Shown here in pieces: positions 12,414 to 53,885 of a DNA stretch of 64,000 bases. Numbering within the stretch: the stretch's first letter is position 1; the number at the start of each line of letters is the position of its first letter. The notes under the pieces are model-generated. The model was given only the letters and a program-made list of their open reading frames with translations, made no database searches and was not told where the DNA came from. The stretch spans positions 3,534,001 to 3,598,000 of the forward strand of contig NZ_CP083590.1 of NCBI RefSeq assembly GCF_020099395.1. The letters are read 5' to 3'. A program made the position numbers and the translations under genes. The stretch is from Streptomyces mobaraensis. Its GTDB lineage: Bacteria; Actinomycetota; Actinomycetes; Streptomycetales; Streptomycetaceae.

Positions 12414-12437
12414 CGCGAACGTCCGCGCGAACGTCCG
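12414..12437. repeat. 12-bp direct repeat abutting the DUF5063 stop codon
   Basis: Two perfect adjacent copies of CGCGAACGTCCG lie directly after the minus-strand stop codon (12438-12440). This is one of several stop-proximal tandem duplications in the window. Confidence 0.85.
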
Positions 12438-13094
12438 TCAGAGCGAGCGCAGCCGCGCCGTTCCGCCGATTTCCGCGGCCATGACGCGTCCGGCCTCCTC
12501 CTCCAGCTGCTCCTCCGTGCCGACGGTGTCCGTGTCGAGCCCGTCGAGTTCGTCGAGGGGCTGGTCGAGGCGGACGTGGGCGACGAGGGACTGGAGGGCG
12601 CGGAGGCAGGCGGAGGCGGTGGGGCCCCAGTTGGAGAGGTACGAGAACTGCCACCACCACAGCGCCTCGCTGACGCGGCCGTCCCGGTAGTGGGCCATGC
12701 CGTGCCGGAGGTCGGTGATGATGTCGGCGAGGTCGTCGGAGATCCGGCAGGCGACGGGGGCGCTGCGCGGGACGTACGGGTCGAAGACCTCGGAGTAGAC
12801 GTCGACCGGGTCGAGGAGCGTCGCGAACCGCTCGCGGAGCTCGTCGACGTCGGGCTCCGGGCCCACGTCGGGCTCGTAGCGCTCGTCGGGCAGGAAGTCC
12901 TCGTGCGCTCCGAGCCGGCCGCCGGTGAGGATCAGCTGGGAGATCTCCAGCAGCAGGAACGGAACGGCACTGTCCGGTTCATCGCCGCGGGACACCTCGG
13001 TGACGGCGACGATGAAGCTCTCGATCGAGTCGGCGACGGAGACGACGAAGTCGTCCGGTTCGCGCTTGGCGTCGTGAAGCGTTGCGTCAGACAT
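12438..13094 (-). CDS. DUF5063 domain protein, coupled to recR
   Basis: A 218-residue acidic, mostly helical protein. Recognisable segments are [62 protein letters not shown] and [24 protein letters not shown], which fit the actinobacterial DUF5063 family found beside recR. The function is unknown. Its ATG at 13094 lies inside the last codons of recR (8-nt overlap), implying translational coupling and perhaps a link to recombinational repair. The tail is Glu-rich. Confidence 0.85.
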
Positions 13095-13686
13095 CGAGAA
13101 GTCGTCTCCCTTCGAAGGCACGCCCGAGCGTGACCTCGTCGGCATATTCCAAGTCTCCGCCCACAGGCAGCCCGCTGGCGAGCCGGGTGACTTTGAGTCC
13201 CATCGGCTTCACCATGCGCGCCAGGTACGTGGCCGTGGCCTCGCCCTCGAGGTTGGGGTCGGTGGCGAGGATCAGCTCGGTGACGGCACCGTCCGCGAGC
13301 CGGGCCAGCAGCTCGCGGATGCGCAGATCGTCGGGGCCGACCCCCTCGATGGGGCTGATGGCCCCGCCGAGGACGTGGTAGCGGCCGCGGAACTCACGCG
13401 TCCGCTCGATGGCGACGACGTCCTTGGGCTCCTCCACGACGCAGATGACGGCCGGATCGCGGCGCGGGTCCTGGCAGACCCGGCACCGCTCCTCCTGCGC
13501 CACGTTGCCGCAGACGGCACAGAACCGGACCTTGGCCTTGACCTCGGTCAGGGCCTGGGCGAGCCGACGGACGTCGGTCGGCTCGGCCTGGAGGATGTGG
13601 AAGGCGATCCGCTGCGCGCTCTTCGGACCGATGCCGGGCAGCCTGCCCAGCTCGTCGATGAGGTCCTGGACCACGCCTTCATACAC
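13087..13686 (-). CDS. recR: Recombination mediator RecR
   Basis: The 199-residue protein is full length for RecR. An N-terminal helix-hairpin-helix ([24 protein letters not shown]) is followed by a C4 zinc finger ([16 protein letters not shown]), a Toprim domain ([33 protein letters not shown]) and a C-terminal Walker-B-like segment ([29 protein letters not shown]). With RecO it loads RecA at SSB-coated gaps. It lies 55 bp after ybaB and overlaps the next gene. The order dnaX-ybaB-recR is conserved widely in bacteria. Confidence 0.97.
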
Positions 13687-13741
13687 GGATCGGGTTCTCC
13701 TTCTGGGATGCGGGCGGCCGGACGGCCAGGCGGTCAGACAG

Positions 13742-14080
13742 TCAGAACGGCAGGCCGGGGATGCCGCCGCCGAGGCCCTGGGCGAGCGGGCCGAGCTTCT
13801 GCTGCTGGAGCTGCTGGGCGGCGTTGTTGGCGTCGCGGACGGCGGCGAGGATCAGGTCGGCGAGGGTCTCGGTGTCCTCGGGGTCGACGGCCTTCGGGTC
13901 GATGACCAGGCCCTGGAGCTCCCCGGCACCGCTGACGGTGACCTTCACGAGGCCGCCGCCGGCCGAACCCTCGACCGGGGTCTCCGCCAGCTCCTGCTGA
14001 GCTGCGGCGAGGTCCTGCTGCATCTTCTGAGCCTGCTGAAGCAGCTGCTGCATGTTGGGCTGGCCACCACCGGGGATCAC
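13742..14080 (-). CDS. YbaB/EbfC nucleoid-associated protein
   Basis: A 112-residue protein. The YbaB core is clear: [71 protein letters not shown]. Family members dimerise into a tweezer-like shape, bind DNA without strong sequence preference and often sit between dnaX and recR, as here. The Gln-rich N-terminal coiled coil and the short Gly-rich tail are typical. It is probably in one operon with recR. Confidence 0.93.
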
Positions 14081-14376
14081 GGCTTCGCTCCTGTGCTCTC
14101 GCGACTACGGGTACGACGGCGCGCCGTGCGGCACGGCTGGGCGCCACGCCGGTCCGACGCGGGGTCGGTAGCCCGAGCCTACGTGCTCGCCGGGCGCGGC
14201 GCGCCATGCGAGGGGAAGAAGTCCGGGGTGGGCGGCACTCGGCCGGCACGCGGCCGTACGCGGGCGGGCCGGGGGCGGGCCGGGGGCGCGGGCCCACTGC
14301 CGTCGGCGTCCTGCCGCGCCCCCTAACGCCCTCTCTCGCGGCTCATCCGCTGGTCGTCCAACTACTCATCCGCTGC

Positions 14377-16764: not shown

Positions 16765-16917
16765 ACCTACGACGATATCGGGCCCCACTGACAAGTGGCC
16801 TCGCTCACAGTTTCCGGCCACAGCCACCCGCCGCCAGATCCCACCCGCCCCGCGGCCCCGCCCCCGGCAACGCCCCGCCGAAACCCGGCACGCCCCCGCA
16901 GCCCCCGGAAAACACAA

Positions 16918-17007
16918 GGGCCCCCCACGCACCCGCCAGAGCCCACTTACCCTTGCTGCCTTCCGGCCCTGGGGGAGTTGGGTGAGATAGCGCCACGTGA
17001 GGGGCTT
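16918..17007 (-). ncRNA. ffs: Signal recognition particle RNA (4.5S, small type)
   Basis: Read on the minus strand, the conserved SRP apical domain appears as CAGGGCCGGAAGGCAGCAAGGG, with the GGAA tetraloop and asymmetric AGCA loop bound by Ffh. The ends GCCCCUCACG and CGUGGGGGGC pair over 10 bp to close the hairpin, giving about 90 nt. The ends are estimated from this pairing. A position just upstream of dnaX is typical for actinomycetes. Confidence 0.93.
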
Positions 17008-17129
17008 GACCCCCACCCTAGCGCACTCCACCCCCACCCCGGCCCCCTCCCCCACCCGCACCCCCTCCCGACGATCTTGTCACCGATCGGGTTCGCGAGC
17101 ACTGCTCCACGTCTTGTATTGTTTGCGGC

Positions 17130-17214
17130 GGAGGATTCGCCTAGAGGCCTAGGGCGCACGCTTGGAAAGCGTGTTGGGGGCAACCCCTCACGAGTTCGAA
17201 TCTCGTATCCTCCG
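17130..17214 (+). tRNA. tRNA-Ser (anticodon GGA)
   Basis: The class II tRNA has acceptor GGAGGAT/ATCCTCC, anticodon loop CTTGGAAAG, a long variable arm (GTTGGGGGCAACCCC) and T loop GTTCGAATC. CCA is not encoded. TGTATT about 10 nt upstream is a plausible -10 element. It reads UCC/UCU serine codons. Confidence 0.97.
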
Positions 17215-17235
17215 CACTCGCCCAGCAGGGCAGAT

Positions 17236-17268
17236 GAAGGTCCCGACCGCTCAGCGGCCGGGACCTTC
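17236..17268 (+). terminator. Terminator of tRNA-Ser(GGA)
   Basis: Perfect arms GAAGGTCCCG and CGGGACCTTC with an internal GC stem lie 20 bp after the tRNA and are followed by GTCGTTTCG. Confidence 0.8.
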
Positions 17269-17305
17269 GTCGTTTCGCGGTCGCGGAATCGGCGGCGGTT
17301 TCCGG

Positions 17306-18574
17306 CTAGCGCCCGTTGAGGCGGGCCCTGCATGCCCTGCAGTACATGGCGGCGTTCCGCCCATAGCGCCGCATCATCTGGCCGCAGCCGGCGCACAGTC
17401 CCAGCTCCCACGGCGGGCAGCCCAGCGCGGCGGAGGCGGCGGCGCGTTCTACGGCGGTGATCCGCATCGGGCCGTGGGAGCGCTGGACCGGCATACGGGG
17501 AAGCGTGAAGCCGCCGGTCGGCTGACCGAGATCCCGGGCGGGCCGACCGTCGCTGACGAACCTGCCCTCCTCCCCCGCCCGGCAGGTGCGGTCGATCTCC
17601 TGCTCGGCGAACGTGACCACGTCGTCCTCGTCCTCCGCCTCGGCCAGGGCCGCAGGGAGAGGTGTCTTCTCGCCGACGAGCTCCTGCCACCGCGCGCGGT
17701 CGTCGGCCGAGACCCACATGTGGCGGCCGGCGCGGCCATTCCCTCGGTTGGGTACGTAGACCGGGACGCTGTCGCCCGTGGCGCTCTGCAGGACGAGGTC
17801 CTCGATCTGCACGGGCTTCCGCTGCGGGAGACACAGTGCGGGGACGAACCAGTCCGCGTGAATCGCGCCACAGTGGCCGGCACCGTCGCTGACGAGGCAG
17901 TGACGCTCGCTGCTCGGTGCGCATTTCCAGACTTCGAGGTGCCGGTACCCGCCGCGGATCACCATCTCCTTGCCTCCGGCGATGTCCTTCCACGGCATGT
18001 CGTCGACACGGGCCCACGGCGCCCGGTCGATCAAGGAAGCCGTCCGGTCCTTCGCCACCCAGAGCGGGGTGACGCCGTGCTCCACGGCGTTGACCGAGCG
18101 CCGGTGGACGCTGCTGGGGCTGAGGTGGTGGTACTGGATCTCCCAGCCGATCCGCAGGCCGCCGGGTCCGGTGACGACAGCGTCCGAGACGCTCCGCCGG
18201 TTGGCCATGGGAACCTCGGCCACGGCGGCCAGACCGTACCGCCCGGCGGTCTCGACGATCCGTTCCTTGGTGGCCTTGTGCTGGGCGCTCTCCGCCGGAG
18301 TGGCCTTGTGCGTGATCGGCAGATGCGAGGCGACGAGCGGTCGCCGGCCGCCCACGCGTCCTCGGCGGATGAACATCCAGGGTGCCTTGCCGCCCGACTC
18401 CGACAGGCACTCGCGCTTGTCGTGGTGCGCGAGGCATTCGAGCAGCCGCGGGTCGCGCTCGGAGACGCTGACGATGATCTCTTGGAGCAGGTCGGGACGG
18501 TCCGGGTGACCCAGGTCGGGCAGGGACAGATTGATCTCTATGCCATATCCGGTGTGCCACACCCCATTAGCCAT
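17306..18574 (-). CDS. CoiA-like PD-(D/E)XK nuclease protein with C-terminal zinc ribbon
   Basis: A 422-residue cytosolic protein. The centre (~130-185) carries RRSVSDAVVTGPGGLRIGWEIQYHHLS followed by RRSVNAVEHGVTPLWV. This matches the CoiA-type nuclease core, with Asp, then Glu-x-Gln, then an Arg and a Trp-Val strand. The C terminus has a C4 zinc ribbon (CAGCGQMMRRYGRNAAMYCRAC). CoiA in firmicutes promotes recombination of transforming DNA; the role in Streptomyces is unknown. The start at 18574 is chosen over a GTG at 18607. It is downstream of, and co-directional with, a zinc-finger/coiled-coil gene. An accessory or mobile-element origin is possible, but no integrase is present. Confidence 0.7.
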   Translation of the reverse strand: MANGVWHTGYGIEINLSLPDLGHPDRPDLLQEIIVSVSERDPRLLECLAHHDKRECLSESGGKAPWMFIRRGRVGGRRPLVASHLPITHKATPAESAQHKATKERIVETAGRYGLAAVAEVPMANRRSVSDAVVTGPGGLRIGWEIQYHHLSPSSVHRRSVNAVEHGVTPLWVAKDRTASLIDRAPWARVDDMPWKDIAGGKEMVIRGGYRHLEVWKCAPSSERHCLVSDGAGHCGAIHADWFVPALCLPQRKPVQIEDLVLQSATGDSVPVYVPNRGNGRAGRHMWVSADDRARWQELVGEKTPLPAALAEAEDEDDVVTFAEQEIDRTCRAGEEGRFVSDGRPARDLGQPTGGFTLPRMPVQRSHGPMRITAVERAAASAALGCPPWELGLCAGCGQMMRRYGRNAAMYCRACRARLNGR

Positions 18575-18714
18575 CTCTCCACGATAGGAACGGGCACTGA
18601 CATTCAATAGCCCGCGGGGTCAGGGGAGTTGTCCTGGGCAGGACAGGAATGGCAATCCCTGACACCAGCTTCCCGAGGCAGTCACCTCTGATCTTGATGC
18701 AACAGAGGGGCGGA

Positions 18715-20160
18715 TCAGGCGCCGGCCGGCTCGTTCTGCGATTCCGTGTGCTGCTCCGGGGTGGCCGGTGGGGCGTGTACGCAGCGGACGACGGCGCCGG
18801 TGTCCGTTTCGCGCAGCCCGTGATGGTCGCACTGAAGGCACGCGTCCATCACGGCACGATCGCGCACGCGCTTGACGTCGGCGTTCAATTCCCTGAGTGC
18901 GTCGAGTGCGAGGGGCTGCTGGTGCCAGCGCGGCGGCTCGTACTCGGGAATGGCGTGGCGGGCCTCGATGGCGGTGTCGATTTTGCCGTTGAGGATGGTC
19001 ACCGCGGCAGAGGACGCCTCCGCCGGCCCCATCGCCTTGCGCTCTTTCCAGCCTGCCGCCGTGTCGGCGGCCCTCCATGCGAAGCAGATCATCTGGCCGG
19101 GGGTGAATCCGGCGTCGAAGCCCTTTTTGACGATATCGGCGAGCTGTCGGCGGCGCCCTTCGGGCACTTCGGGGTACTGATACGTCTTCGTCAACAGCCC
19201 ATCGAGGTAAAGGATGAGGTTGACGATCTCCATGTGCTCGACGAGTTCGGCAAGAGCCTGGCGGGCCTCATGTGCCGCCTGCCCGGGAGCCGTCATGTAG
19301 TGGCTCTTCACTGTCCGAGCGTGCGCCGTGATCACTTTGCTGTCGCCTACCAGGCGCCATCGCGCCTCCGTGAGGAAAAAGCGGGGACTGTCGTCGCCCT
19401 CCGAGAAAACGAACGCCTTTCGGGGCGTCTCGGCGGCGACGGCCAGGAGGTCCGCTGCGTACAGGTCGAGAATGGCGTCTCTGTCCCGGTCGATGTCCGC
19501 CGTCCACCCGAGAAGGCCCAGATCCACCATGCTGGGCAGTGGCTTGCCGGGGCGATAGGCGGCGTGGCCGACCAAGGCGAGGTACAGAGCCGGTGCGAGG
19601 GGACTGTCGTAGGGAATGCGGGCGCCGGCCCCGTCCTTGGCCTCCTCGGCCGCGAGGATCTCGGCGATCTCGGCCGCTTCCTCCTCCGCCTTCAGCCGCT
19701 CGCGTTCCTTCTCGGCCCGGGCGGCCTCAAGTCTGTGCTGACGCTCGCGCTCGCGTTCCTCCTCCCGGACGGCGCCGCATTCCTGGCACAGGTACTTGTC
19801 GTTGGGACGGTCGAGGAATTTCCCGGCCACCTTGACGGCCCACGAACGGTTGGCGACCCTGATCGGTTCGTCGCACTTGACGCACAGGGATCGCAGCAGA
19901 ACCGCGTACGAAGCGGAGGTCGCGGTGGCCGCCGCCCATTGCAGCTCGCCGATGCTGCCGACGGTGCGTGCCCACGTACCGTCCTCGGCGATCTCCCAGT
20001 ACAGCTTCGCGATTTCTTGCTCCTGCGCTGATCGTCCGGCCTCGATGACGACACGGAGACGAGGCGCGCCAGGCGGAAACTCCACCACCACCGGCGTCGG
20101 TACAGCCCCCTGCCCCTTCCTCGCCCGCTCCCTCTTCCGGCGACGTTCACGCTTGCCCAT
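18715..20160 (-). CDS. Zinc-finger/coiled-coil protein of unknown function
   Basis: I do not recognise this 481-residue protein. The N terminus is very basic (MGKRERRRKRERARKGQG). A C4 finger (CVKCDEP ... CQECGAV) lies at ~125-160 and runs into a charged coiled coil (EERERERQHRLEAARAEKER, KAEEEAAEIAEILAAEEA). A mixed alpha/beta domain follows, and the end has CLQCDHHGLRETDTGAVVRC. GGAGGGG lies 5 nt before the ATG at 20160. It forms a probable two-gene unit with the CoiA-like nuclease 140 bp downstream. DNA or RNA binding is inferred from the basic N terminus and fingers. Confidence 0.65.
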   Translation of the reverse strand: MGKRERRRKRERARKGQGAVPTPVVVEFPPGAPRLRVVIEAGRSAQEQEIAKLYWEIAEDGTWARTVGSIGELQWAAATATSASYAVLLRSLCVKCDEPIRVANRSWAVKVAGKFLDRPNDKYLCQECGAVREEERERERQHRLEAARAEKERERLKAEEEAAEIAEILAAEEAKDGAGARIPYDSPLAPALYLALVGHAAYRPGKPLPSMVDLGLLGWTADIDRDRDAILDLYAADLLAVAAETPRKAFVFSEGDDSPRFFLTEARWRLVGDSKVITAHARTVKSHYMTAPGQAAHEARQALAELVEHMEIVNLILYLDGLLTKTYQYPEVPEGRRRQLADIVKKGFDAGFTPGQMICFAWRAADTAAGWKERKAMGPAEASSAAVTILNGKIDTAIEARHAIPEYEPPRWHQQPLALDALRELNADVKRVRDRAVMDACLQCDHHGLRETDTGAVVRCVHAPPATPEQHTESQNEPAGA

Positions 20161-20239
20161 GCGCCCCTCCCTCGGCCACCGTTCCCATGCTCCCGCATGC
20201 TCCCCGTGCCGACGGCGCGTTTTCGGCAGGAAGCCCCGA

Positions 20240-20534
20240 CTCTCGGCGGGTCCAGGCAAGTTCGAAGCGTTCGTGGAGGTCCGTCGCGGCGTCCAGGGAG
20301 CAGATGGTCTTGGCGGTCAGGACGGTCAGGAGGGGTACGAGGGGGAGGGTGCGGTTGTGGGGGCGCGGGGTGAGGAGGGCGGCGCTGCTGGCGGCAGCCA
20401 GGGCGACGGCCGAGACGGTGAGCAGCCAGGTGGCCAGGCGCGGTTCGAGGCGTTCGACCGTGGGGCGGGCCGCGGCGGCGGCGAGGAGGGGGGAAGAGCA
20501 GGGGCAGGTAGCAGGGGCAGGTAGACGGCCAGGT
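20240..20534 (-). pseudogene. Remnant of M56 (BlaR1-like) membrane metalloprotease
   Basis: On the minus strand HLAVYLPLL is followed, after a one-base slip in a C-run (20485-20495), by LLAAAAARPTVERLEPRLATWLLTVSAVALAAASSAAL, the N-terminal membrane segments of Streptomyces M56 proteases. It then runs directly into LLTPRPHNRTLPLVPLLTVLTAKTI and DLHERFELAW, which resembles the family's C-terminal membrane segment. The central zinc-protease domain (HExxH) is absent. The gene therefore seems frameshifted and internally deleted. It lies downstream of a blaI remnant, the usual partner order. Confidence 0.6.
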
Positions 20535-20639
20535 GAATCCCGGGTCCTTGGGCGGCGGCGGGGACCGGGGCGGTGGCCCCGGGGGGGCAGTGGCCCCGGG
20601 GGGGGCAGTGGCCCCGGGGGGGCAGCGATCCAGGAGGCA

Positions 20640-20806
20640 AGGATCCCAGAGGCAGGGGTCCCAGGTCAGTGGTCCCCGGGGCAGGGGTCCCGGGTCAATG
20701 GTCCGCGGGGCAGGGGTCCCGGGTCAGTGGTCCCCCGGCAGGATCCGTGTCACTGGGCCCCCGGCAGAGGGCTCCAGGTCACTGGTCCGCAGGGCAAAGT
20801 CCCAGG
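20640..20806. repeat. Degenerate 27-29-bp tandem repeat continuing from the blaI remnant
   Basis: Five to six diverged copies contain GGTCA(G/C)TGGTCC and GGCAGGGGTCCC. On the minus strand each repeats the terminal Asp-His-stop coding sequence of the blaI remnant (GACCACTGACC). Just upstream (20575-20630) is a G-rich array of CAGTGGCCCCGGGGGG copies. Confidence 0.75.
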
Positions 20807-21065
20807 TCAGTGGTCGGGGTCCAGGGGTGCGTTGAGGTGGGTGCCCAGCAGGCGGCGTAGGGGCCTGCTCGTCGGCCGCCGACAGGTCGTCGACGAAGCG
20901 TGCCAGGACCGCCTCGCGGTCGCTCTCGCCGCTGAGGACCTGGTGCATCCTGCGGGCGGCGAGGCCGGCATCCTCTTCCACGCCGTCCTCCGCCGGCACG
21001 CCGTACGGCTTCCGCCCCTCCTCGCCCGCACGCCACTGCGCCCCCCTGGTGGCGGCGCAAAGCCG
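20807..21065 (-). pseudogene. Remnant of BlaI/MecI-family repressor
   Basis: The C-terminal half reads ARRMHQVLSGESDREAVLARFVDDLSAADEQA, then, after removal of one extra C near 20858, LRRLLGTHLNAPLDPDH and stop. This is the dimerisation tail of the BlaI/CopY family. The N-terminal winged helix has decayed beyond reading, with only LRR and scattered matches left. BlaI normally represses itself and an adjacent M56 protease gene, whose remnant follows. Frame breaks and the missing DNA-binding domain make it non-functional. Confidence 0.6.
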
Positions 21066-21131
21066 ATGGCGCGACGCTCCCGCGTCAGAGCACCCGAGGA
21101 ATCCGGAAAGCCATGTCCGGCTTGCCTGGCT

Positions 21132-22232
21132 ATGCTATGGAATGTGATCAAGCCTGGACGGCTGTGGTTCCGGCGTCGGCCCGGGCGGGAGCTGTTTACC
21201 CTGCTGTCGCCGGTGCTCCTGACCGTCGTGATTGCGAGCCTGGCGTACAACACGCCGCGGAGCATGGCGTTCAGCCGCCTCCTGCCCGCGGCGCCCGCGC
21301 TGGCGGCGGCGATGTGGCCGGTGCTGCCTACGGTGCTGCTGGGCACGATCTGTCTGCTGTTGATGATCGGGCTGGGGATCGTGTTCCCCGACCTGGGGAC
21401 GGGGTACACCGCGGCCGGGATCGTGGCGGTGACCGTGGCGGCGGCGTATGGGAGCCATGCGCGGCTGCAGCGGGAGCGGACGTTGTTCCAGGTGCGGCTG
21501 GTGGCGGACGCGGCGCAGCAGGTGGTGCTCAGCCCGATGCCGCGGCGGTGCGGGAGCCTGGAGATCGAGTCGCTGTACCTCGCGGCGGCGGCCGAGGCGC
21601 GGATCGGGGGCGACTTCTACGAGGTGGCGGACACCCGGTTCGGCGTGCGGCTGCTGATCGGGGACGTACGGGGCAAGGGGCTGCCCGCGGTCGGGTCGGC
21701 CGCGGCGATGGTGAACTCGTTCCGCGAGGCCGCGTACGACGTCCCCGGCCTGGGCGACCTCGCGCGCCGGCTGGAGGCCAGCAGCACCCGGTACAGCGCC
21801 GCGTTTCCCCCCGACGACCTCATGGAACGCTTCACCACCGCCCTGCTCGTCGAGATCCCGCACGACGGCGGCCGGATCGGCATCCTCAACTGCGGACACC
21901 CCCCGCCGCTGCTGCTCGGCGGCGAGGGGCTCCGGGTACTGGAGTCCAGTGCCCCCTCGCCGCTGCTCAACCTGGCGGAGCTGATCGGGGACACGTACAG
22001 CGTCGACGTCTTCGACGTCTCCCCCGGCGACATCCTGCTGCTCTACACGGACGGGGTGACCGAGGCCCGCGGCCACGGCGGGGCGTTCTTCCCGCTCCAG
22101 GACTGGATGCGGCGGCAGACGCCGGGGCGGCCCAGGGCGCTGCTCGACGCTCTCCACCGTGACCTGCTGCGCTACAGCCGGGGCGGGCTGGACGACGACA
22201 TCGCCGCGCTCGCGGTCCGGCTCGATCGTTGA
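21132..22232 (+). CDS. Membrane PP2C-type (SpoIIE) serine phosphatase
   Basis: A 366-residue protein. Three to four TM segments lie in the first ~110 residues (ELFTLLSPVLLTVVIASLAY, LAAAMWPVLPTVLLGTICLL, AAGIVAVTVAAAYGS). A SpoIIE/PPM catalytic domain follows: RIGGDFYEVADTRFGVRLLIGDVRGKGLPAV, GILNCGHPPPLLL, GDILLLYTDGVTEARG and GGLDDDIAALAVR. The conserved metal-binding acids (GGDFYE, GDVRGKG, YTDGVTE, DDD) are all present. Such enzymes dephosphorylate anti-sigma antagonists or similar targets at the membrane. The ATG at 21132 is chosen; a GTG at 21144 is an alternative. The stop codon falls within an 18-bp imperfect direct repeat. Confidence 0.9.
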   Translation: MLWNVIKPGRLWFRRRPGRELFTLLSPVLLTVVIASLAYNTPRSMAFSRLLPAAPALAAAMWPVLPTVLLGTICLLLMIGLGIVFPDLGTGYTAAGIVAVTVAAAYGSHARLQRERTLFQVRLVADAAQQVVLSPMPRRCGSLEIESLYLAAAAEARIGGDFYEVADTRFGVRLLIGDVRGKGLPAVGSAAAMVNSFREAAYDVPGLGDLARRLEASSTRYSAAFPPDDLMERFTTALLVEIPHDGGRIGILNCGHPPPLLLGGEGLRVLESSAPSPLLNLAELIGDTYSVDVFDVSPGDILLLYTDGVTEARGHGGAFFPLQDWMRRQTPGRPRALLDALHRDLLRYSRGGLDDDIAALAVRLDR

Positions 22233-22268
22233 TCACCGCTCGATCGACGCATCGGAGGCTCGGGCCCC

Positions 22269-22577: not shown

Positions 22578-22635
22578 CCTGGCCTCACGGATCGGGTTCT
22601 TCGGCTGCCGCCGCCCGGCATGGCTGCCGGAAGCT

Positions 22636-22663
22636 CGCGATCAGTAATTCGCGATCAGTAATT
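22636..22663. repeat. Perfect 14-bp tandem duplication across a stop codon
   Basis: CGCGATCAGTAATT occurs twice in direct succession. The minus-strand stop of the hemerythrin-like remnant (22655-22657) is in one copy, and the same triplet recurs in the other. Confidence 0.9.
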
Positions 22664-22954
22664 GTCGCCGAACGCCGCCCGCTGCCGCTTCTCCAGCCAG
22701 CCCTTGAACAGGGCCGCCACCGGCGGTGCCGGGACCCCCGAGCGCTCGTCCGGGCCCGCCACCGAGGACAGCCAGGCCGGCATGAACTTCGGCGTCCACG
22801 AAGGCGCCGTCTTGCGCATGTGCGCCGCGAACCCCTTCCACACCTTCTCGTTCAACACCGGGGCGAGGCGGACGGAGAGTTCGCGTTCCTCGTCCGCCGC
22901 GTGCCGGGCGAGCTCGTCGCGGAGCGGGTGGGTCAGGCGGGCCAGCTCGGCCAC
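22655..22954 (-). pseudogene. Hemerythrin-like protein, C-terminal fragment
   Basis: About 99 residues remain: ELARLTHPLRDELARHAADEEREL, then VWKGFAAHMRKTAPSWTPKFMPAWLSS and FKGWLEKRQRAAF. This looks like the C-terminal part of Streptomyces hemerythrin/HHE-domain proteins. The N-terminal part with most metal-binding His residues is missing. At 22954 the sequence changes abruptly into a ThDP-enzyme fragment on the other strand. A GTG sits at the breakpoint by chance, so expression of the fragment is possible but unlikely to be meaningful. Confidence 0.65.
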
Positions 22955-25487: not shown

Positions 25488-26054
25488 GTGTCCTTCCTGT
25501 CCCCTGACTACCCCGAGGTCCTCTACGACCGCGACAAGGGCGAGCTCTCCGCGTCCTTCCGGCCCGTGGACACTCCCCCGGACTACACGGCCCCCAACGG
25601 CAACACCTACCACTACCTCTCCACGAAGCTGTCCACCAACGGGCTCTTCGGGCTCTACAAGAACAGGATGGGACCGGCCGTGGGCGGGACCAGCCCGCAC
25701 TTCCACAAGACGATGTCCGAGGCGTTCTACGTCCTCTCGGGCGAGATCCACGTCTTCGACGGGGAGCAGTGGTTCGACGCCTCGGAGGGCGACTACCTCT
25801 ACATACCGCCGGGCGGCGTGCACTCCTTCGGCAACATCTCCGGCGAACCGGCCGAGTTCCTGATGCTGTTCGCCCCCGGCGGCGCCCGCGAGGCGTACTT
25901 CGAGGGCCTGGAGCACCTCGGTTCCATGACCGACGACGAGCGGGCCGAGTTCCTGGTGCGGCACGACAGCTTCTTCGCCGACATGACCAAGGGGCCGGGG
26001 GCGGACTCCTGGGAGCGCCGGGCGTCCCTCCGGAAGTCCTTCAAGACCCAGTGA
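25488..26054 (+). CDS. Cupin-domain protein
   Basis: This 188-residue protein has a single cupin barrel: SPHFHKTMSEAFYVLSGEIHVFDG gives metal-ligand motif 1 (HxH, 4 residues or more, E), and YIPPGGVHSFGN gives motif 2 with its His. The C-terminal part (FLMLFAPGGAREAYFEGLEHLG) is typical of quercetinase-like cupins. It could be a small dioxygenase or isomerase; the substrate is unknown. The GTG at 25488 has AAGGAG 8 nt upstream. It is probably co-transcribed with tetR. The stop codon begins a 14-bp triplicated repeat. Confidence 0.85.
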   Translation: MSFLSPDYPEVLYDRDKGELSASFRPVDTPPDYTAPNGNTYHYLSTKLSTNGLFGLYKNRMGPAVGGTSPHFHKTMSEAFYVLSGEIHVFDGEQWFDASEGDYLYIPPGGVHSFGNISGEPAEFLMLFAPGGAREAYFEGLEHLGSMTDDERAEFLVRHDSFFADMTKGPGADSWERRASLRKSFKTQ

Positions 26055-26091
26055 CGTCGTCCGCATGACGTTGTCCGCATGACGTTGTCCG
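26049..26091. repeat. 14-15-bp triplication starting at the cupin stop codon
   Basis: CAGTGACGTCGTCCG, containing the TGA stop, is followed by two copies of CATGACGTTGTCCG. Confidence 0.85.
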
Positions 26092-32248: not shown

Positions 32249-32391
32249 CCTCATGACGCGGGGGCCGGCTTCCCCGGCCGGCATCCCGGGTGCCAAACCT
32301 CCTCACGGCGAATTCACGGTTTTTTCCACCCATCGGTGGAACGCACTCCCGAACTCGCCCACTGGGACCCGACCTTGGCCAGGCTGTACGG

Positions 32392-33480
32392 GTGCGGGGA
32401 TGGCTGAGAGCGGGACGGCTGACGGCGCTGGCGGCGTTCGCGGTCTTCGGGCTGGCGGGCGAGGCGGCCGCCGACGACCTGGAGGCGGACGCGACGGCCG
32501 GCAACAGTTCGCTGCACGCGGTCGTCCACCACGTGCCAAGGCTGCTGCCACCGCACCCGCCGTCGCATGTGCGCGTGCGCGCGCTGGGCGGCGCGGTGCG
32601 CGCGAATGTGGACGACGACGGGGTGCGCTGCCTGGCCGTCGGGGCGGGAGTGCTCCGGGTGACCGCCCATGTGCGGCTGGGCGCCTGCCAGGCCCAGACC
32701 CCTCCGGCGGCCGCCGCACCAGCGGCTCCCGCCCCTGCGGCCCCTCCGGCCGCCGTGGCACCGGCCGCCCCGGCGGCCCCACCAGCCGCTGCCACTCCTG
32801 CGGCCCCGGCCGCCCCGCCGGCAGCGGCACCGGCGGCACCGGCGGCGCCCGCCGCCCCGGCAGCTCCCCCGGCCGCCGCCGCTCCAGCCGCTCCCGCGGC
32901 GCCCGCACCTGCGGCACCCGCAGCCCCCGCACCAGCGGCTCCCGCTCCGGCCGCACCGGCCCCCGCCGCGCCGGCGGCTCCCCCGGCCGCGGCCCCGGCA
33001 GCACCACCAGCCGCCGCTGCCCCACCAGCCGCCGCAGCTCCTGCGGCCCCCGCACCCGCGGCACCGGCAGCACCAGCGACTCCGACGGCACCCGCAGCAC
33101 CCGCCCCTGCTCCCGCTCCCGCTCCCGCACAGCCGGCCCGCCCGGCGACCCCGGTCACCGCGAACCCGCCCGCCCGCTCCGCCGCATCGGCCCCCGCCGC
33201 CGCGACACCAGCACCGGGCGCACCGGCCGCGCCGTCTTCTCCGTCCACACCGTCATCGCCGGCCACCCCGCCCCCGGCGGAGAGCCACATCCCGGCGCCG
33301 ATCCCGCCGGTCCACCTCCCCATTCCCCCGCACCACATCTACCGGAACACGGTGGCGGCGGGCGGTAACCCTCTCGTACCGCACACCTCCGTGGTCACGC
33401 TCACCCTCTTGCTCACCACACCCGCCGTGCTGACCGCCGCCCTGCTGCGGCCCCGCTCCGGCAGCCGCCGCACCCGCTGA
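32392..33480 (+). CDS. Exported Ala/Pro-repeat protein, membrane-anchored
   Basis: The protein is 362 residues long. Its signal peptide is RAGRLTALAAFAVFGLAGEAAA. A small N-terminal domain of ~80 residues follows (SLHAVVHHVPRLLPPHPPSHVRVRALGG, DDGVRCLAVGAGVLRVTAHVRLGACQ). About 190 residues of AAPAAP-type repeats come next, and it ends with VVTLTLLLTTPAVLTAALL and a basic tail (RPRSGSRRTR), the topology of a wall-spanning, C-terminally membrane-anchored protein. No LPXTG is present. The start is uncertain (GTG at 32392 chosen; no clear ribosome site). The function may be structural. Confidence 0.7.
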   Translation: MRGWLRAGRLTALAAFAVFGLAGEAAADDLEADATAGNSSLHAVVHHVPRLLPPHPPSHVRVRALGGAVRANVDDDGVRCLAVGAGVLRVTAHVRLGACQAQTPPAAAAPAAPAPAAPPAAVAPAAPAAPPAAATPAAPAAPPAAAPAAPAAPAAPAAPPAAAAPAAPAAPAPAAPAAPAPAAPAPAAPAPAAPAAPPAAAPAAPPAAAAPPAAAAPAAPAPAAPAAPATPTAPAAPAPAPAPAPAQPARPATPVTANPPARSAASAPAAATPAPGAPAAPSSPSTPSSPATPPPAESHIPAPIPPVHLPIPPHHIYRNTVAAGGNPLVPHTSVVTLTLLLTTPAVLTAALLRPRSGSRRTR

Positions 33481-33625
33481 CCCACCGGGCACACCCGCCC
33501 CCGCACCCGCACCCCCGGTCCCGCCCGCACCACGAAAGGCACCGCTGCGAAACACGCCCCCGCGACAGGCGCCGCCGCGAAAGGCCCCGCCAAACAAAGA
33601 TCGAGAAAGGCCGCGCCAAAACAAC

Positions 33626-33671
33626 AAATGCCCCGGCGTATTGACAGCCGGGGCATTTTCTCGCGTATATT
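33626..33671 (+). promoter_or_regulatory. Hairpin overlapping a near-consensus promoter before the HelR-like gene
   Basis: AAATGCCCCGG and CCGGGGCATTT form a perfect 11-bp stem (33626-33636, 33648-33658). The loop holds TTGACA (33641-33646), a consensus -35, with TATATT at 33666-33671 (19-nt spacer) as -10. The stem can terminate the upstream gene and could also control access to the promoter. Confidence 0.6.
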
Positions 33672-33746
33672 GATTGTTTCTATGCCGCGCCGAAAGCAAG
33701 GCATGGAGAAGCTTTGTAAGGCCATGATATCGGGGCGGGAGTCACA

Positions 33747-40391: not shown

Positions 40392-41144
40392 GTGCGGATC
40401 AACGAAGCCGTCGCCCTGGTGACCGGCGCCAACCGAGGTATCGGGCGCGCCCTGGTCAGCGAGTTCCTGTCCCGCGGCGCCGCCCGCGTACACGCCGCCG
40501 CGCGCGACCCCCGGTCCCTGGAACCGCTGGCCGCCGAGGCCCCGGACCGGATCGTCCCGCTCACCCTGGACATCACCGACCCGGCCGCCGTCACGGCCGC
40601 CGCCGAGGCCGCGCCCGACGTGACGCTCCTGGTCAACAACGCGGGACGGCACGGAATGGGCCACCTGCTCGACATGGACCTGACCGACGTCGAGGCGGTC
40701 ATGCGGACGAACTGGCTGGGCACCCTCCTCGTCCTGCGCGCCTTCGCGCCCGTCGTCGAACGCAACGGCGGCGGCGCCGTTGCCAACGTCATCAGCGTCG
40801 GCGCCTTCGCCGGCACCCCGGCGATGGGCGCCTACCCCGCGTCCAAGGCCGCGCTCGCCCTGCTCACCCAGGCCGTCCGGGTGGACCTCGCCCCGCGCGA
40901 GATCAGCGTGCACGCCGTCTTCCCGGGCCCCGTCGAGACGGACATGCTGCGCTACGCCGCCGGTCACCTGAAGAACCTCGGCGCCGTCCCCACCGCGTCG
41001 GCCGCCGACGCGGCCCGCGCCATCGCCGACGGCATCGAGGCCGGCGACGAGGAGATCTTCCCCGACCCGTTCGCCCGGCAGGTCCGGGACGGCCTCCGGA
41101 CCGACCCCAAGGGCGTCGAGCGGCTGCTCCTGTCCATGGAGTGA
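40392..41144 (+). CDS. Short-chain dehydrogenase/reductase
   Basis: The 250-residue classical SDR has the NAD(P) motif TGANRGIG at ~11-18, NNAG near 85, and catalytic Ser and YxxxK in SVGAFAGTPAMGAYPASKAA. The Arg after TGxxxGIG and the AARD segment suggest NADPH preference, which is inference. It is divergent from the epoxide hydrolase and may act in the same detoxification route. GGAG lies 6 nt before the GTG. Its stop codon is part of a sixfold repeat. Confidence 0.88.
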   Translation: MRINEAVALVTGANRGIGRALVSEFLSRGAARVHAAARDPRSLEPLAAEAPDRIVPLTLDITDPAAVTAAAEAAPDVTLLVNNAGRHGMGHLLDMDLTDVEAVMRTNWLGTLLVLRAFAPVVERNGGGAVANVISVGAFAGTPAMGAYPASKAALALLTQAVRVDLAPREISVHAVFPGPVETDMLRYAAGHLKNLGAVPTASAADAARAIADGIEAGDEEIFPDPFARQVRDGLRTDPKGVERLLLSME

Positions 41145-41219
41145 TGCGGTGGAGTGATGTCGGTGCAGTGACGTCGGTGGAGTGACGCCGATGGAGTGAC
41201 GCCGATGGAGTGATGAACC
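41137..41219. repeat. Six tandem 13-14-bp units starting across the SDR stop codon
   Basis: Units are of the form TGGAGTGA(T/C)G(T/C)CG(G/A). The first contains the SDR stop TGA, and every later copy repeats that TGA. Units four and five are identical. Confidence 0.85.
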
Positions 41220-41269
41220 GCCCCCGCCCGCACATGCGGAGCACACGCTCCCGGGAGACCATCGGTCCC

Positions 41270-41881
41270 ATGGAGCACACCCTCCGGCTCGCCCAGCAGG
41301 AGGACGCCGACGCGCTGCTCTCCCGCAGCCCGCTCGCCGCCCTGGTGGGGATGCTGCTCGACCAGCAGATCCCGATGGAATGGGCGTTCACCGGCCCGTA
41401 CACCCTCGCCCGGCGGCTCGGCCGTGACGACCTCGACGCGCACGAGATCGCCGCGTACGACCCGGAGGCGTTCGCGGAGCTCTGCGCCGCCAAGCCGGCC
41501 GTCCACCGCTATCCGGCCGCCATGGCCGAGCGGATCCAGCGGCTCTGCCGCCACCTCGCCGAGCGGTACGACGGTGACGCCGCCGCCGTCTGGCGGGACG
41601 TGCCCACCGGTCCCGAACTGCTGCGCCGCCTCACCGACCTGCCGGGATTCGGCCGGCAGAAGGCACAGATCTTCCTCGCCCTGCTGGGCAAGCGGCTCGG
41701 GGTGCGCCCCGACGGCTGGCGGGAGGCCGCGGGCCCGTACGGCGAGGAGGGCAGCCACCGTTCGGTGGCGGACATCACCGGCCCCGACTCCCTGCGCGAG
41801 GTCCGGGCCTTCAAGCAGGCGGCCAAGCAGAAGGCGAAACAGGAGAGGGAACGGGGAAAGCCGGCGCCGCCGAAGCGCTGA
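41270..41881 (+). CDS. HhH-GPD base-excision DNA glycosylase-like protein
   Basis: A 203-residue protein. It has AALVGMLLDQQIPMEWAF and RIQRLCRHLAERYDGDAAAVW, then the helix-hairpin-helix LLRRLTDLPGFGRQKAQIFLALLGKRLG, which contacts DNA next to the damaged base. Compared with AlkA or Nth the protein is short and lacks the Fe-S cysteines, as is usual for this actinobacterial subgroup. The catalytic Asp cannot be assigned with confidence. The tail is rich in Lys and Gln. Confidence 0.85.
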   Translation: MEHTLRLAQQEDADALLSRSPLAALVGMLLDQQIPMEWAFTGPYTLARRLGRDDLDAHEIAAYDPEAFAELCAAKPAVHRYPAAMAERIQRLCRHLAERYDGDAAAVWRDVPTGPELLRRLTDLPGFGRQKAQIFLALLGKRLGVRPDGWREAAGPYGEEGSHRSVADITGPDSLREVRAFKQAAKQKAKQERERGKPAPPKR

Positions 41882-42445: not shown

Positions 42446-43117
42446 ATGAGCATGCTCACCCCTCCTGGCATGGGCGGCAAGTACCGCATCACGGGCCGTC
42501 GGTTCCCGCATATGCGCCGGCCGAGGAACCCGCGGAGGGTCGTGCTCGCCGCGGTCGCCGCGGTCGCCGTCCTGGGGCTGGGCGGCTGGGGGACGGTCCA
42601 GCTCGTCGACGTCTTCTCGGGCGGCGGGAGCGGCTCCCCGCAGGCGGCCCGGAAGAGCGCCGACTGCGGCCGGGACGGGCACGGCGACACGACGGACGCC
42701 AGGGCCGCCGGCCGGCCGGCGCCCCGCGAACTGCCCCGGCCCGGCGACATCACCGTCAACGTCTACAACGCCACCCCGCGCAGCGGCCTGGCCAAGACGA
42801 CCGCGGACGAGCTGAAGGCACGCGGCTTCCGCATCGGCAAGGTCGGCAACGCCCCCGCGCCCTACGACAAGAACGTCGAGGGCACGGCGCTGCTGCTGGG
42901 CCCGCCCGAGGACGCCGAAGGGGCGATGCGCGTCCTGGAGGAGCAGGTCGGCGAGGCGACGGTGAAGAGCGACGTCCGCAAGGGCACGGACATCGACCTG
43001 ATCATCGGCACCGGCTTCAAGGAGCTCAGGCCCGCGCCGGGCGCGAGCCGGGCACCGGCCGCGCCGCGACCGGCCCCGTCGTCCCCGGCACCCTCGAAGA
43101 GCGCGGCGAAGTGCTGA
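42446..43117 (+). CDS. Membrane-anchored LytR_C-domain protein
   Basis: This 223-residue protein has a basic N terminus and one TM (RRVVLAAVAAVAVLGLGGWGTVQLV). The extracytoplasmic LytR_C domain is at ~100-190 (ITVNVYNATPRSGLAKTTADELKARGFRIGKVGNAP; GTDIDLIIGTGF). A Pro/Ala tail follows. LytR_C domains occur in cell-envelope proteins linked to LytR-CpsA-Psr ligases that attach polymers to peptidoglycan, but here the catalytic part is absent. The stop codon lies in a 15-bp triplicated repeat. Confidence 0.87.
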   Translation: MSMLTPPGMGGKYRITGRRFPHMRRPRNPRRVVLAAVAAVAVLGLGGWGTVQLVDVFSGGGSGSPQAARKSADCGRDGHGDTTDARAAGRPAPRELPRPGDITVNVYNATPRSGLAKTTADELKARGFRIGKVGNAPAPYDKNVEGTALLLGPPEDAEGAMRVLEEQVGEATVKSDVRKGTDIDLIIGTGFKELRPAPGASRAPAAPRPAPSSPAPSKSAAKC

Positions 43118-43157
43118 GCGAGCACGGGCTGACCGAGCACTGCCTGACCGACCGGTG
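43113..43157. repeat. 15-bp tandem repeat (3 units) spanning the LytR_C gene stop
   Basis: GCTGAGCGAGCACGG, GCTGACCGAGCACTG and CCTGACCGACCGGTG follow one another. The first holds the TGA stop, and each later unit retains CTGA. Confidence 0.75.
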
Positions 43158-43171: not shown

Positions 43172-43807
43172 TCAGCCGGCCGTCCCGTACATCCGGTCGC
43201 CCGCGTCCCCGAGGCCCGGCACGATGTAGCCGTCCTCGTTGAGGCGCTCGTCCACGGAGGCGGTGACGACGGTCACCGGGGTGCCGGCGAGCTCGCGCTC
43301 CATGACCTCGACACCCTCGGGGGCGGCCAGCAGGCAGATGGCGGTGACGTCGTCGGCGCCGCGCCCGATCAGCTCGCGGATCGCCGCGACCAGCGTGCCG
43401 CCGGTGGCCAGCATCGGGTCGAGCACGTACACCTGGCGGCCCGAGAGGTCGTCCGGCATCCGCGTCGCGTACGTCTCCGCCTTGAGGGTCTCCTCGTTGC
43501 GGATCATGCCCAGGAAGCCGACCTCGGCCGTGGGCAGCAGCCGGACCATGCCGTCGAGCATGCCCAGACCGGCCCGGAGGATCGGCACCACCAGCGGGCG
43601 GGGGTGGGACAGCTTGACGCCGGTGGTCGCGGTGACCGGCGACTCGATGTCGACCTGTTCGGTCCGCACGTCCCGCGTGGCCTCGTAGGCGAGCAGGGTG
43701 ACCAGCTCGTCGGCGAGCCGCCGGAACGTGGGGGAGTCGGTGCGCTTGTCGCGCAGCGTGGTGAGTTTGTGCGCCACCAGCGGGTGGTCGACGACGTGGA
43801 TCCGCAT
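43172..43807 (-). CDS. upp: Uracil phosphoribosyltransferase
   Basis: The 211-residue enzyme converts uracil plus PRPP to UMP in pyrimidine salvage. It has [24 protein letters not shown] at the N terminus, [12 protein letters not shown], the PRPP loop [12 protein letters not shown] and the uracil-binding C terminus ([24 protein letters not shown]). Length and motifs are complete. The ATG at 43807 matches the family start. Confidence 0.97.
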
Positions 43808-43945
43808 GACATCGACATTATCCGAGCTTTCGGACACCGGCTCCCGGCCCCACGGTGGCATCACACCACCGCTCAGGGGGAAAGTGGGCACGTACGCCCG
43901 GCCTGCTCCGCCGGGCGAGACCCTCGGCACGAGGTGGTGCTGCGC

Positions 43946-44233
43946 ATGGCCGAGCGTGACGAACGCGGACCGGGAGCCCGTAAGGGCCCCCAAAGCCCGG
44001 CGGAACCGGCGGTTTCGGGGATACGGCCCAGGGAGCGTCCCCGGGAGCGCTCCCGCGAACGCCCGCAGGACCCGGACACCCCCCTGGACGACGACGGGGA
44101 GCGGCGGCGCCGGCGCGCCCAGTTCCTCCGTGAGCTGAACGAGGCCCGGGAGCTCCGCGACCGGGTGCAGCCGCGCCGCGCGCGGGCGGCGCGCATGCGC
44201 CAGCAGATGCGCATGCGGACGTTCAGATGGTGA
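43946..44233 (+). CDS. Small, highly charged conserved protein
   Basis: The protein has 95 residues. It is rich in Arg and Glu ([54 protein letters not shown]), with a predicted helix in the second half. The function is unknown. It is divergent from upp and upstream of the tadA pair. The sequence from its last Trp codon through the stop is duplicated directly downstream. Confidence 0.65.
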
Positions 44234-44273
44234 GCTGAGCGGGCGGCGGCTGGTGAGCTGAGCGGGCGGCGGC
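44228..44273. repeat. Perfect 23-bp direct repeat starting at a stop codon
   Basis: The 23 bases 44228-44250, beginning TGGTGAGCTGAGCGGGC and containing the stop codon TGA (44231-44233), are repeated exactly at 44251-44273. Confidence 0.95.
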
Positions 44274-46675: not shown

Positions 46676-47643
<968 letters not shown>

Positions 47644-51155: not shown

Positions 51156-51187
51156 GGCCCCTCGCCACCACGGCGAGGGGCCTTTTT
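51156..51187 (+). terminator. Rho-independent terminator after Dabb gene
   Basis: GGCCCCTCGCC and GGCGAGGGGCC (11 bp) with a 5-nt loop are followed by TTTTT. Confidence 0.93.
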
Positions 51188-51298
51188 CGCGTGGTCAACA
51201 CGGCGTTATGCGGTGCTTGCACACAGTGGACATGTCTTGTGATGCTATGACCGCTTTTGACGGATGAGTTGACCTGGAGCTGACCGCGAAGGGGTGGT

Positions 51299-52246: not shown

Positions 52247-52340
52247 CCCTTGTGGGTGACACCCTCTCCGGACTCCCCGGCAGATATGTCGACTTGACGC
52301 TACAGCGCGTTGCCGACATGTGACATTCTGCTGGAACTGC

Positions 52341-52367
52341 GTTTGCCACAGCGCAGCCTCCGGTATT
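52341..52367 (+). promoter_or_regulatory. SigB-class promoter candidate before the second sigma gene
   Basis: GTTTGC (52341-52346) and GGTATT (52362-52367) with a 15-nt spacer resemble the GTTT / GGGTAT elements used by the SigB group. The site lies 78 bp before the ATG of the second sigma gene, so this gene may be transcribed by a sigma factor of its own group. Confidence 0.4.
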
Positions 52368-52444
52368 CAGGTGGGGGCTGCACCCTCGGCCGAATCCGCG
52401 GCCGGGGCTGTGCTGTGATCCGTCCGCGACCTCAAGGGGGTGGC

Positions 52445-53278
52445 ATGTCCGTAGACCTGGGCAGCGCGAAGGTGCTCACCAACGACGCACCGCACGCCGT
52501 GCTCGACGACTGCGAAGCCATCGACACCCGCACCCTCTCCCGCTCCCTCTTCCTGCGGCTGGCGGCCCTGGACCGGGACAGCGCCGAGCGTACGTACGTC
52601 CGTGACACCCTCATCGAGCTCAACCTCCCCCTCGTGCGCTACGCGGCGGCGCGGTTCCGGAGCCGCAACGAGCCGATGGAGGACATCGTCCAGGTCGGCA
52701 CCATCGGACTGATCAAAGCCATCGACCGGTTCGACTGCGAACGCGGGGTGGAGTTCCCGACGTTCGCGATGCCCACGGTCGTCGGCGAGATCAAACGCTT
52801 CTTCCGGGACACCAGCTGGTCGGTGCGGGTGCCACGGCGCCTGCAGGAGCTGCGGCTCGCCCTGACCAAGGCCAGCGACGAGCTCGCGCAGAAGCTGGAC
52901 CGCTCCCCCACCGTGCCCGAACTGGCGCTGTGCCTGGGCGTCTCCGAGGAGGACGTGGTCGACGGGCTGGCGGTGGGCAACGCCTACACGGCCAGCTCGC
53001 TGGACTCCCCCTCGCCGGAGGACGACGGCGGCGAGGGCTCGCTCGCCGACCGGCTGGGCTACGAGGACACGGCACTGGAGGGCGTCGAGTACCGGGAGTC
53101 GCTGAAGCCGCTGCTGGCCAAGCTGCCCCCGCGCGAGCGCCAGATCATCATGCTCCGCTTCTTCGCCAACATGACGCAGTCGCAGATCGGCGAGGAGGTC
53201 GGCATCTCCCAGATGCACGTCTCCCGGCTGCTCACCCGGACGCTCTCCCAGCTCCGTGAGGGCCTCATCTCCGACTGA
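52445..53278 (+). CDS. SigB/SigF-class RNA polymerase sigma factor (second of pair)
   Basis: The protein is 277 residues long. Region 2 is [52 protein letters not shown] and region 4 [35 protein letters not shown]. It is about 60% identical by eye to the preceding sigma factor in these regions, with a short N terminus. Probable tandem duplication; by position it could be the SigN orthologue. AAGGGGG lies 6 nt before the ATG. Confidence 0.85.
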   Translation: MSVDLGSAKVLTNDAPHAVLDDCEAIDTRTLSRSLFLRLAALDRDSAERTYVRDTLIELNLPLVRYAAARFRSRNEPMEDIVQVGTIGLIKAIDRFDCERGVEFPTFAMPTVVGEIKRFFRDTSWSVRVPRRLQELRLALTKASDELAQKLDRSPTVPELALCLGVSEEDVVDGLAVGNAYTASSLDSPSPEDDGGEGSLADRLGYEDTALEGVEYRESLKPLLAKLPPRERQIIMLRFFANMTQSQIGEEVGISQMHVSRLLTRTLSQLREGLISD

Positions 53279-53598
53279 ACCGCACCACCCACCCACTCGC
53301 AGGCAGGACGGACCACCGGTCGACCGACCCCGGTACGGCAGCGGCGGACCGCGACACGCAGGTCGCGGCGGGGGCCGCCGGGCCGTCCGGCAGGTACACG
53401 GCGCCTCCGGCGCCGGCCCGCCACCCCCTCCGGGGACGGCCGCAGAGCCGATGCCTCCTCCCGCACGGCGGACACCCCGCTCCCGGGCGACGGGCGGTAC
53501 GCCTCGTGTGCGTCGCGCACATCAGAAGCGGCGGGCAGAAAGCGGGCTGAAAGGGCTTCGGGGGGCGAGCATGAAGAGCCGTATCCCGACCTCAACCG

Positions 53599-53885
53599 TG
53601 CCCTCGTGTCAGCCGCGCGCGAGCCTTGGCCGCGCTCTCTTGTCAGCCGGGGAAGAGCTCCGGCCGAGCGCGAGCCTCAGCCGCGCCTCCCGTGTCAGCC
53701 GAGCACGAGCTTCACCAGCGCCCTCGCGTCAGCCGAGGACGAGCTTCCGGCCGAGCGCGACCCTCAGCCACACCCACGCCTCAACCGCGCCCTCGCGTCA
53801 GCCGAACACAAGCCCCAGCCGCGCCAGCCGCGTGAGCCGCGCCCCCGCGTCCGTCACGCCCCCGTGTCAGCCGAGCGCGAGCCAG
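53599..53885. repeat. Array of repeats derived from the 3' end of a small membrane gene
   Basis: The core GTCAGCCG with flanking (C)G(C/T) and GAGC(G/A)CGAG occurs at 53608, 53642, 53694, 53728, 53797 and 53866. The last of these contains the stop codon of the minus-strand gene at 53867. The rest of 53279-53598 holds no recognisable gene. Confidence 0.75.

Follow-up and report, generated by a model that had tools for sequence, protein, structure and literature searches.

Short tandem arrays in Streptomyces mobaraensis are enriched throughout the 3' flanks of genes, where they probably survive as harmless products of slippage

The DNA considered here (the window, 64,000 nt in full, G000:C1:3534001-3598000) belongs to the 7.67 Mb chromosome of Streptomyces mobaraensis, has a G+C content of 72% and contains short head-to-tail arrays on or close behind the stop codons of its genes. 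An original prediction made on this sequence listed nine such stop-associated arrays and named slippage tied to translation termination or to transcription-replication conflict, or selection for back-up stops, as possible explanations. When the sites were examined with Tandem Repeats Finder (TRF), six of the nine proved to be clean arrays at or abutting a stop and two are degenerate; the imperfect repeat reported at the stop of the SpoIIE gene (22215..22250, plus strand) is not a tandem array, and TRF gave no row there even at a score of at least 30. Comparisons were made chiefly with a close relative, genome G051, with which the window genome clusters in a upp tree of 63 rows, beside Streptomyces netropsis, S. 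olivoreticuli and S. albireticuli.

Among the clean sites, a 12-nt unit in 2.1 copies (100% matches; 12413..12437, minus strand) adjoins, without including it, the stop of a DUF5063 gene (12438-13121, minus). Three 14-nt arrays follow: one of 2.1 copies (100%; 22635..22663, minus) crosses the stop of a 99-aa open reading frame (ORF) at 22655-22954 (minus), one of 2.9 copies (96%; 26052..26091, plus) starts on the stop codon of a cupin gene (25488-26054, plus), and one of 5.6 copies (90%; 41137..41213, plus) crosses the stop of a short-chain dehydrogenase (SDR) gene (40392-41144, plus) and occupies the whole gap up to the next called gene (41210-41881). A 15-nt unit in 2.6 copies (43113..43151, plus), with 87% matches and so below our cut of 88%, crosses the stop of a LytR_C gene (42470-43117, plus) in the convergent gap that separates it from upp (43172-43837, minus). 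An exact duplication of 23 nt (2.0 copies, 100%; 44228..44273, plus) crosses the TGA at 44231-44233 that closes an ORF at 43604-44233; the status of this ORF as a gene is weak, as the gene finder does not call it and its substitutions in G051 at codon positions 1, 2 and 3 number 5, 4 and 8. The degenerate sites are a 29-nt array of 6.1 copies (77%; 20644-20815), which spans the stop of an ORF at 20807-21409 (minus) and is the last member of a cluster at 20497..20815 that also holds arrays of 13 nt (2.2 copies, 20497-20524) and 17 nt (3.4 copies, 20567-20625), and a 69-nt array of 3.2 copies (68%; 53663..53883, minus) with a repeated TCA, within which a 73-aa ORF (53867-54088, minus) has its stop. 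Two arrays predicted somewhat further behind genes, at 1511 and 4165, are genuine: an 18-nt unit in 3.1 copies (97%; 1505..1560, plus) lies 28 nt past the stop of the gene at 958-1476, and an imperfect 16-nt unit in 4.4 copies (81%; 4160..4229, plus) lies past the stop of the gene at 2274-4133.

Pfam searches confirmed the DUF5063, SpoIIE, cupin, SDR and LytR_C identities. The ORF at 20807-21409, previously labelled a blaI remnant, gave no Pfam match, nor did the 99-aa ORF called a hemerythrin remnant, which leaves that name unconfirmed. Many units hold the stop triplet, so that TGA recurs from copy to copy, as had been noted, simply because the unit containing it is copied. Comparison of the listed units by eye also upheld the view that they are unrelated and not one mobile repeat, with the exception of a upp-associated clade described below; a single unit family at many places, as in dispersed mobile repeats (repetitive extragenic palindromes and their mosaic elements, REP/BIME, or mycobacterial interspersed repetitive units, MIRU), was not found by this comparison. 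If clean arrays are defined by a TRF score of at least 44, at least 88% matches and a period of 8-60, the window has 21: four touch a called stop, four start 6-28 nt past one and three at 76-88 nt, three lie inside called genes and seven elsewhere, the duplication at 44228 among them. Two further regions are rich in imperfect repeats. Those at 32249-33746 (overlapping, from 32729-33104 onward) lie in large uncalled open frames and probably belong to a gene with a repetitive linker; dense 15-nt repeats at 6347-6801 (TRF score at most 118) lie ahead of a called gene (5306-6346, minus) and fall within a longer open frame (5306-6805, minus), and may therefore be coding sequence misfiled as flank.

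The density of arrays was compared between compartments in a 1264-kb sample of the same genome, with 1113 genes predicted by a purpose-written codon-score gene finder (which in its control, E. coli only, retrieved 39 of 42 stops with no surplus calls), and in the best 80 of 583 confirmed upp-locus matches, with 1435 genes. In the own genome 73 arrays lie in 3' flanks (1.29/kb), 25 in 5' flanks (0.33/kb) and 149 in coding sequence (0.142/kb), and in the 80 related loci the corresponding figures are 89 (1.05/kb), 51 (0.48/kb) and 163 (0.143/kb). Genome G013 also has more in its 3' flanks (9, 0.84/kb) than in its 5' flanks (1, 0.08/kb) or coding sequence (22, 0.133/kb). Within the first 60 nt of gaps of 120-600 nt there are 30 arrays on the 3' side and 9 on the 5' side (p = 9e-6); the contrast is the same when the count is restricted to strongly scored genes (24 against 7, p = 6e-5), which speaks against a gene-finder artefact as its cause. 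In 3' flanks of up to 100 nt, from gaps of at least 60 nt, arrays of score at least 48 number 19 in convergent and 22 in co-directional settings, where dinucleotide shuffles give 0.3 and 0.4, so that the head-to-tail copies are well above chance and a chance origin can be dismissed; 5' flanks have 3 (divergent) and 9 (co-directional) of this score. The predicted enrichment past stops relative to other intergenic DNA is thus borne out, the 3' density being 3.9-5 times the 5' density in the own genome. Counts of 3'- and 5'-flank arrays in other taxa (E. coli, 200 kb, 0 and 0; G186, 1 and 0; G179, 3 and 2; G199, 3 and 4) are too few for ranking.

Array coverage lies between 0.0405 and 0.0544 throughout the 10-nt bins that span 0 to +139 nt past the stop and declines farther out, a profile that lends no support to a tie to translation termination; within genes it sinks to about 0.003 at 21-30 nt before the gene end, and arrays extend about one unit inward from that end. 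Exact duplications (two to three copies, period 12-45) show no peak at the stop, with 0.67, 0.67, 0.74, 0.41, 0.45 and 0.67 starts/kb in successive 15-nt bins between -15 and +74. Arrays straddling a gene boundary are found at the stop far more often than at the start, both in the own genome (30 against 8) and in the related loci (28 against 2). Most stop straddlers (42 of 47 in the TRF set, 19 of 20 in the exact set) have a first copy that already extends past the stop, and the duplication therefore leaves the protein unchanged. The enrichment is accordingly a trait of the 3' flank and not of the stop codon.

Alignment with G051 rests on 263 orthologues with a median identity of 96%. Of 239 adjacent pairs, 176 were kept; the other 63 were excluded from the rates (gap short or long, or below 75% identity), which probably depresses every rate. 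Moving away behind stops, substitutions per site are 0.118, 0.095, 0.089, 0.086 and 0.083, and moving away ahead of starts 0.036, 0.052, 0.053, 0.044 and 0.076, while four-fold sites give 0.106 (35,883 sites). The 3' flank thus diverges at about the near-neutral rate of four-fold sites, and the 5' flank within 100 nt of the start at under half of it. Gap events number 38-57/kb past stops and 12-21/kb ahead of starts. Relaxed selection accounts for most of the contrast between 3' and 5' flanks, with a residual factor of 1.15-1.84 in indels per substitution for which stronger selection on promoter spacing could account.

This residual could also be taken as the mark of a true slippage hotspot, in which polymerase release, R-loops or stalled forks behind stops would raise the rate of duplication besides the effect of relaxed selection. 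A mild excess of TRF array starts beside stops points the same way, as does the 3'-flank density by gene layout, which is somewhat higher in convergent (1.92 and 1.21/kb) than in tandem arrangement (0.94 and 1.08/kb), although short convergent gaps were entered twice. Against it, the ratio of indels to substitutions does not drop with distance past the stop (0.49, 0.42, 0.43, 0.45, 0.50), coverage is flat over 140 nt and the exact set is without a peak. With the replication origin placed beside dnaA at 3762094, head-on and co-directional genes are equal (1.14 and 1.27/kb, p = 0.62, short convergent gaps again entered twice; for tandem genes only, 23 arrays in 21.2 kb and 29 in 30.8 kb, p = 0.67), and the suggested transcription-replication conflict finds no support in these figures. 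We regard a hotspot of this kind as unlikely, although, given the surplus of indels per substitution, a weak additional one may act at gene ends.

The duplications themselves bear the mark of slippage or short-homology recombination. Exact duplications occur at 0.518/kb in 3' flanks, 0.153/kb in 5' flanks and 0.051/kb in genes, and the match continues past the two copies by a mean of 5.0, 5.9 and 4.9 nt respectively, compared with about 0.9 nt expected from a single-base match probability of 0.309. The ends of duplications therefore share more bases than chance would provide, as would be seen if short direct repeats bounded the units, although third copies in decay may account for some of the long extensions. 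As to reading frame, the period in the exact set is a multiple of three in 135 of 136 cases in genes, in 16 of 33 in 5' flanks and in 33 of 87 in 3' flanks, so that a single process, differently filtered, fits all three compartments. Of the slippage originally proposed, the process is supported in every compartment by the end homology, and its link to termination is not.

The same frame data bear on the proposal that arrays are retained since their copies give spare stops for readthrough ribosomes. In its favour, the stop triplet is present in many units, 22 of the 47 TRF straddlers have a period divisible by three (p = 0.04), and the units of the upp array are 24 nt long and in frame in six of nine species. 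Among the exact straddlers, however, periods leave a remainder of 0, 1 and 2 in 7, 8 and 5 of 20 cases (p = 0.52 for the 7 divisible by three), arrays lying wholly downstream of the stop have an equal share of three-divisible periods in the TRF set (84 of 191), and arrays are mostly not retained between species. In-frame copies of the stop are thus not favoured, in line with a study of additional 3' stop codons in eubacteria that reports no compelling evidence for their selection (PMC6764699). Selection for back-up stops is very improbable.

Turnover between species is rapid. Considering arrays from gaps of 15-700 nt whose flanking genes are adjacent in both S. mobaraensis and G051, 21 of 24 arrays present in the 3' flank of either species have no counterpart at the equivalent place and 3 are shared; none of 15 arrays in 5' flanks is shared. 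Presence thus differs between close relatives, as in minisatellites. Ten arrays detected at the named places of the window correspond to at most 0.9 unit each between the corresponding G051 orthologues. The duplication at 44228..44273 retains at most one unit there (0.8), and every other array at these places, those of the cluster at 20497..20815 included, is missing. At DUF5063 and SDR the G051 stop sits at the equivalent place, and the LytR_C-upp gap is longer and different. The interval 16789-21131, which contains the cluster at 20497-20815, measures 4343 nt here, with two called genes, and 491 nt in G051. Of 25 window arrays checked, three away from the named places (14262, 42546 and 61715) match at least two units in G051, the match of 14262 hardly exceeding that of shuffled units. 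Orthologues that carry an array at the stop retain the gene end in 8 of 9 cases, those lacking one in 230 of 254.

The LytR_C-upp gap provides a wider comparison, in which an array is present in 13 of 79-80 related loci with units that are, by eye, unrelated across loci, three species excepted. The frequency of arrays in such convergent gaps might be read as a sign that tandem hairpins terminate transcription or protect the 3' end of the message, chiefly between convergent genes, and the upp unit, persistent in its clade, does carry a short inverted repeat recognised by eye. Units in the same gap are nevertheless unrelated between most species, and structure in 48 array-bearing 3' flanks of 60 nt (mean z -0.59) is no stronger than in 135 array-free ones, a random quarter of their kind (mean z -0.88; p = 0.97), contrary to what intrinsic terminators would give. 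A role at the RNA level is consequently highly unlikely.

Taken together, these observations indicate that the arrays are probably ordinary, young, minisatellite-like arrays, made by slippage throughout the chromosome and surviving where they do no harm. Segments of about 8-45 nt would occasionally be duplicated chromosome-wide by slipped mispairing between short direct repeats. Within genes nearly all such duplications would be purged unless the frame is kept, and ahead of genes many would be lost, presumably since promoters and ribosome-binding sites lie there. Behind genes they would persist because the 3' flank, in a compact genome, changes at a roughly neutral rate, and the stop codon would be the inner border of the tolerated zone. 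A unit that takes in the stop would still close the protein at its original place through its first copy, and arrays may therefore enter the gene to a depth of about one unit. Arrays would appear and vanish within the divergence of neighbouring species, and rapid turnover would keep their copies alike by concerted evolution. In this scheme we infer both the replication-slippage step and the precedence of selection over mutation in setting the pattern.

Several findings weigh against this interpretation. Indels per substitution are 0.42-0.50 in 3' and 0.27-0.39 in 5' flanks, the residual excess being present in each bin. In pooled Streptomyces data (1792 stops with 60-600 nt downstream) TRF array starts are mildly peaked at the stop, at 1.51/kb in the 10-nt bin before it and 1.84/kb in the one behind, compared with 0.98/kb over 0-100 nt (27 before, 17.5 expected, p = 0.021; 33 behind); for stops with at least 100 nt of room the bin before the stop has 18 against 14.4 (p = 0.20), but that behind has 30. 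Exact duplications become rarer past 75 nt behind the stop, at 0.24-0.40/kb. In the TRF set, the 84 of 191 wholly downstream arrays with a three-divisible period exceed expectation (p = 0.001), which suggests that part of the coding sequence was misfiled as flank. The contrast is weaker in G051, with 11 arrays in 3' and 10 in 5' flanks (0.68 and 0.45/kb; coding 0.090/kb). Of the 8-40-nt gaps between S. mobaraensis and G051, 0 of 141 in 3' flanks and 1 of 59 in 5' flanks were typed as tandem copies; we take this as uninformative, since the aligner is likely to split large gaps, yet it lends the interpretation no support. The gene set consists of our own predictions, in which some genes were overlooked (for example at 32249-33746), and the sample covers 1.264 of 7.67 Mb. 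Finally, the upp array has endured through a clade, which plain neutral loss disfavours.

In nine species (loci L168, L178, L182 and L251-L256) upp is followed by three to five tandem units of 24-25 nt, the last one frequently degenerate, each containing the last four upp codons and the stop. Three of these species come from the 80 loci and six were retrieved by pattern match (6 of 392 genomes), which biases the share of the clade that they make up. In a upp tree with 88 rows, two changes are needed to account for the nine, and a supported fork (96/89) has all nine among its 10 rows. Spacers are 0.93 identical within species (16 pairs) and 0.51 between species (18 equal-length pairs), as expected of concerted evolution or of repeated seeding by the coded copy. 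In the second copy, the coded half is identical in the nine species save A/G at two places; the pattern used to choose six of them required this half, and the other three show its constancy free of that bias. These features could make upp the model for a more general process, in which a weak hotspot starts arrays at gene ends and the protein-locked first copy, with its stop, re-seeds later copies. Distal upp units are indeed decayed in several species, but no such polarity emerges over 86 stop arrays (the gene side is the fresher in 41, against 40), and we consider this reading, hotspot and re-seeding together, unlikely. Two upp loci of the set, L127 (recorded as Streptosporangium nondiastaticum) and L181 (Microtetraspora glauca), encode proteins 96% and 94% identical to that of the window; L127 places among Streptomyces on the upp tree, and both record names look outdated or wrong.

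The arrays resemble several known systems, compared here through passages of the papers cited. With bacterial minisatellites, or variable-number tandem repeats (VNTR), such as the MIRU-VNTR and exact tandem repeat (ETR) loci of mycobacteria (PMC2734929), they share head-to-tail units of tens of nucleotides, an often intergenic location, lineage specificity and a putatively changeable copy number; one such array begins 40 bp past the rnc stop, in a gap that measures only a few bp in mycobacteria not belonging to the tuberculosis complex. The Streptomyces units are mostly 8-30 nt, unrelated from site to site and spread across the 3' flanks of the genus, unlike typed VNTR loci. Repeats of archaeal Borgs (PMC9879509) are likewise fast-evolving and of independent origin, are flanked by partial repeats and may start inside the end of an ORF; their units are divisible by three in all ORF cases and in 14-38% of intergenic ones. 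They differ in their hosts and A-rich units, and the passages concerned claim no enrichment past stops. The TAACTGA repeats of Beggiatoaceae (PMC4679880) are also short direct repeats, some overlapping stops at gene ends, and their insertions in coding sequence succeed chiefly at the protein periphery; they consist, however, of one fixed heptamer, mostly start-oriented and possibly regulatory, in contrast to the unrelated units found behind Streptomyces genes. Short variable segments between strains (PMC2884548) share short direct repeats ending some indels, for which replication slippage was proposed, with short-homology illegitimate recombination as a partial explanation; that work, on three other species, applied a threshold of 20 bp, and 3' flanks are not singled out in its passages. 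No prior report of array enrichment in Streptomyces 3' flanks appeared among the titles and abstract openings listed, which mostly leave out subscription journals, so that one may have been published.

For compact high-GC genomes these results point to a rule that the DNA directly behind genes records slippage in a nearly neutral way. Tandem arrays are to be expected there, should not be read as regulatory or termination elements without further evidence, and may act as fast strain markers. The 3' flanks would also allow the rates of duplication and substitution to be compared directly in bacteria.

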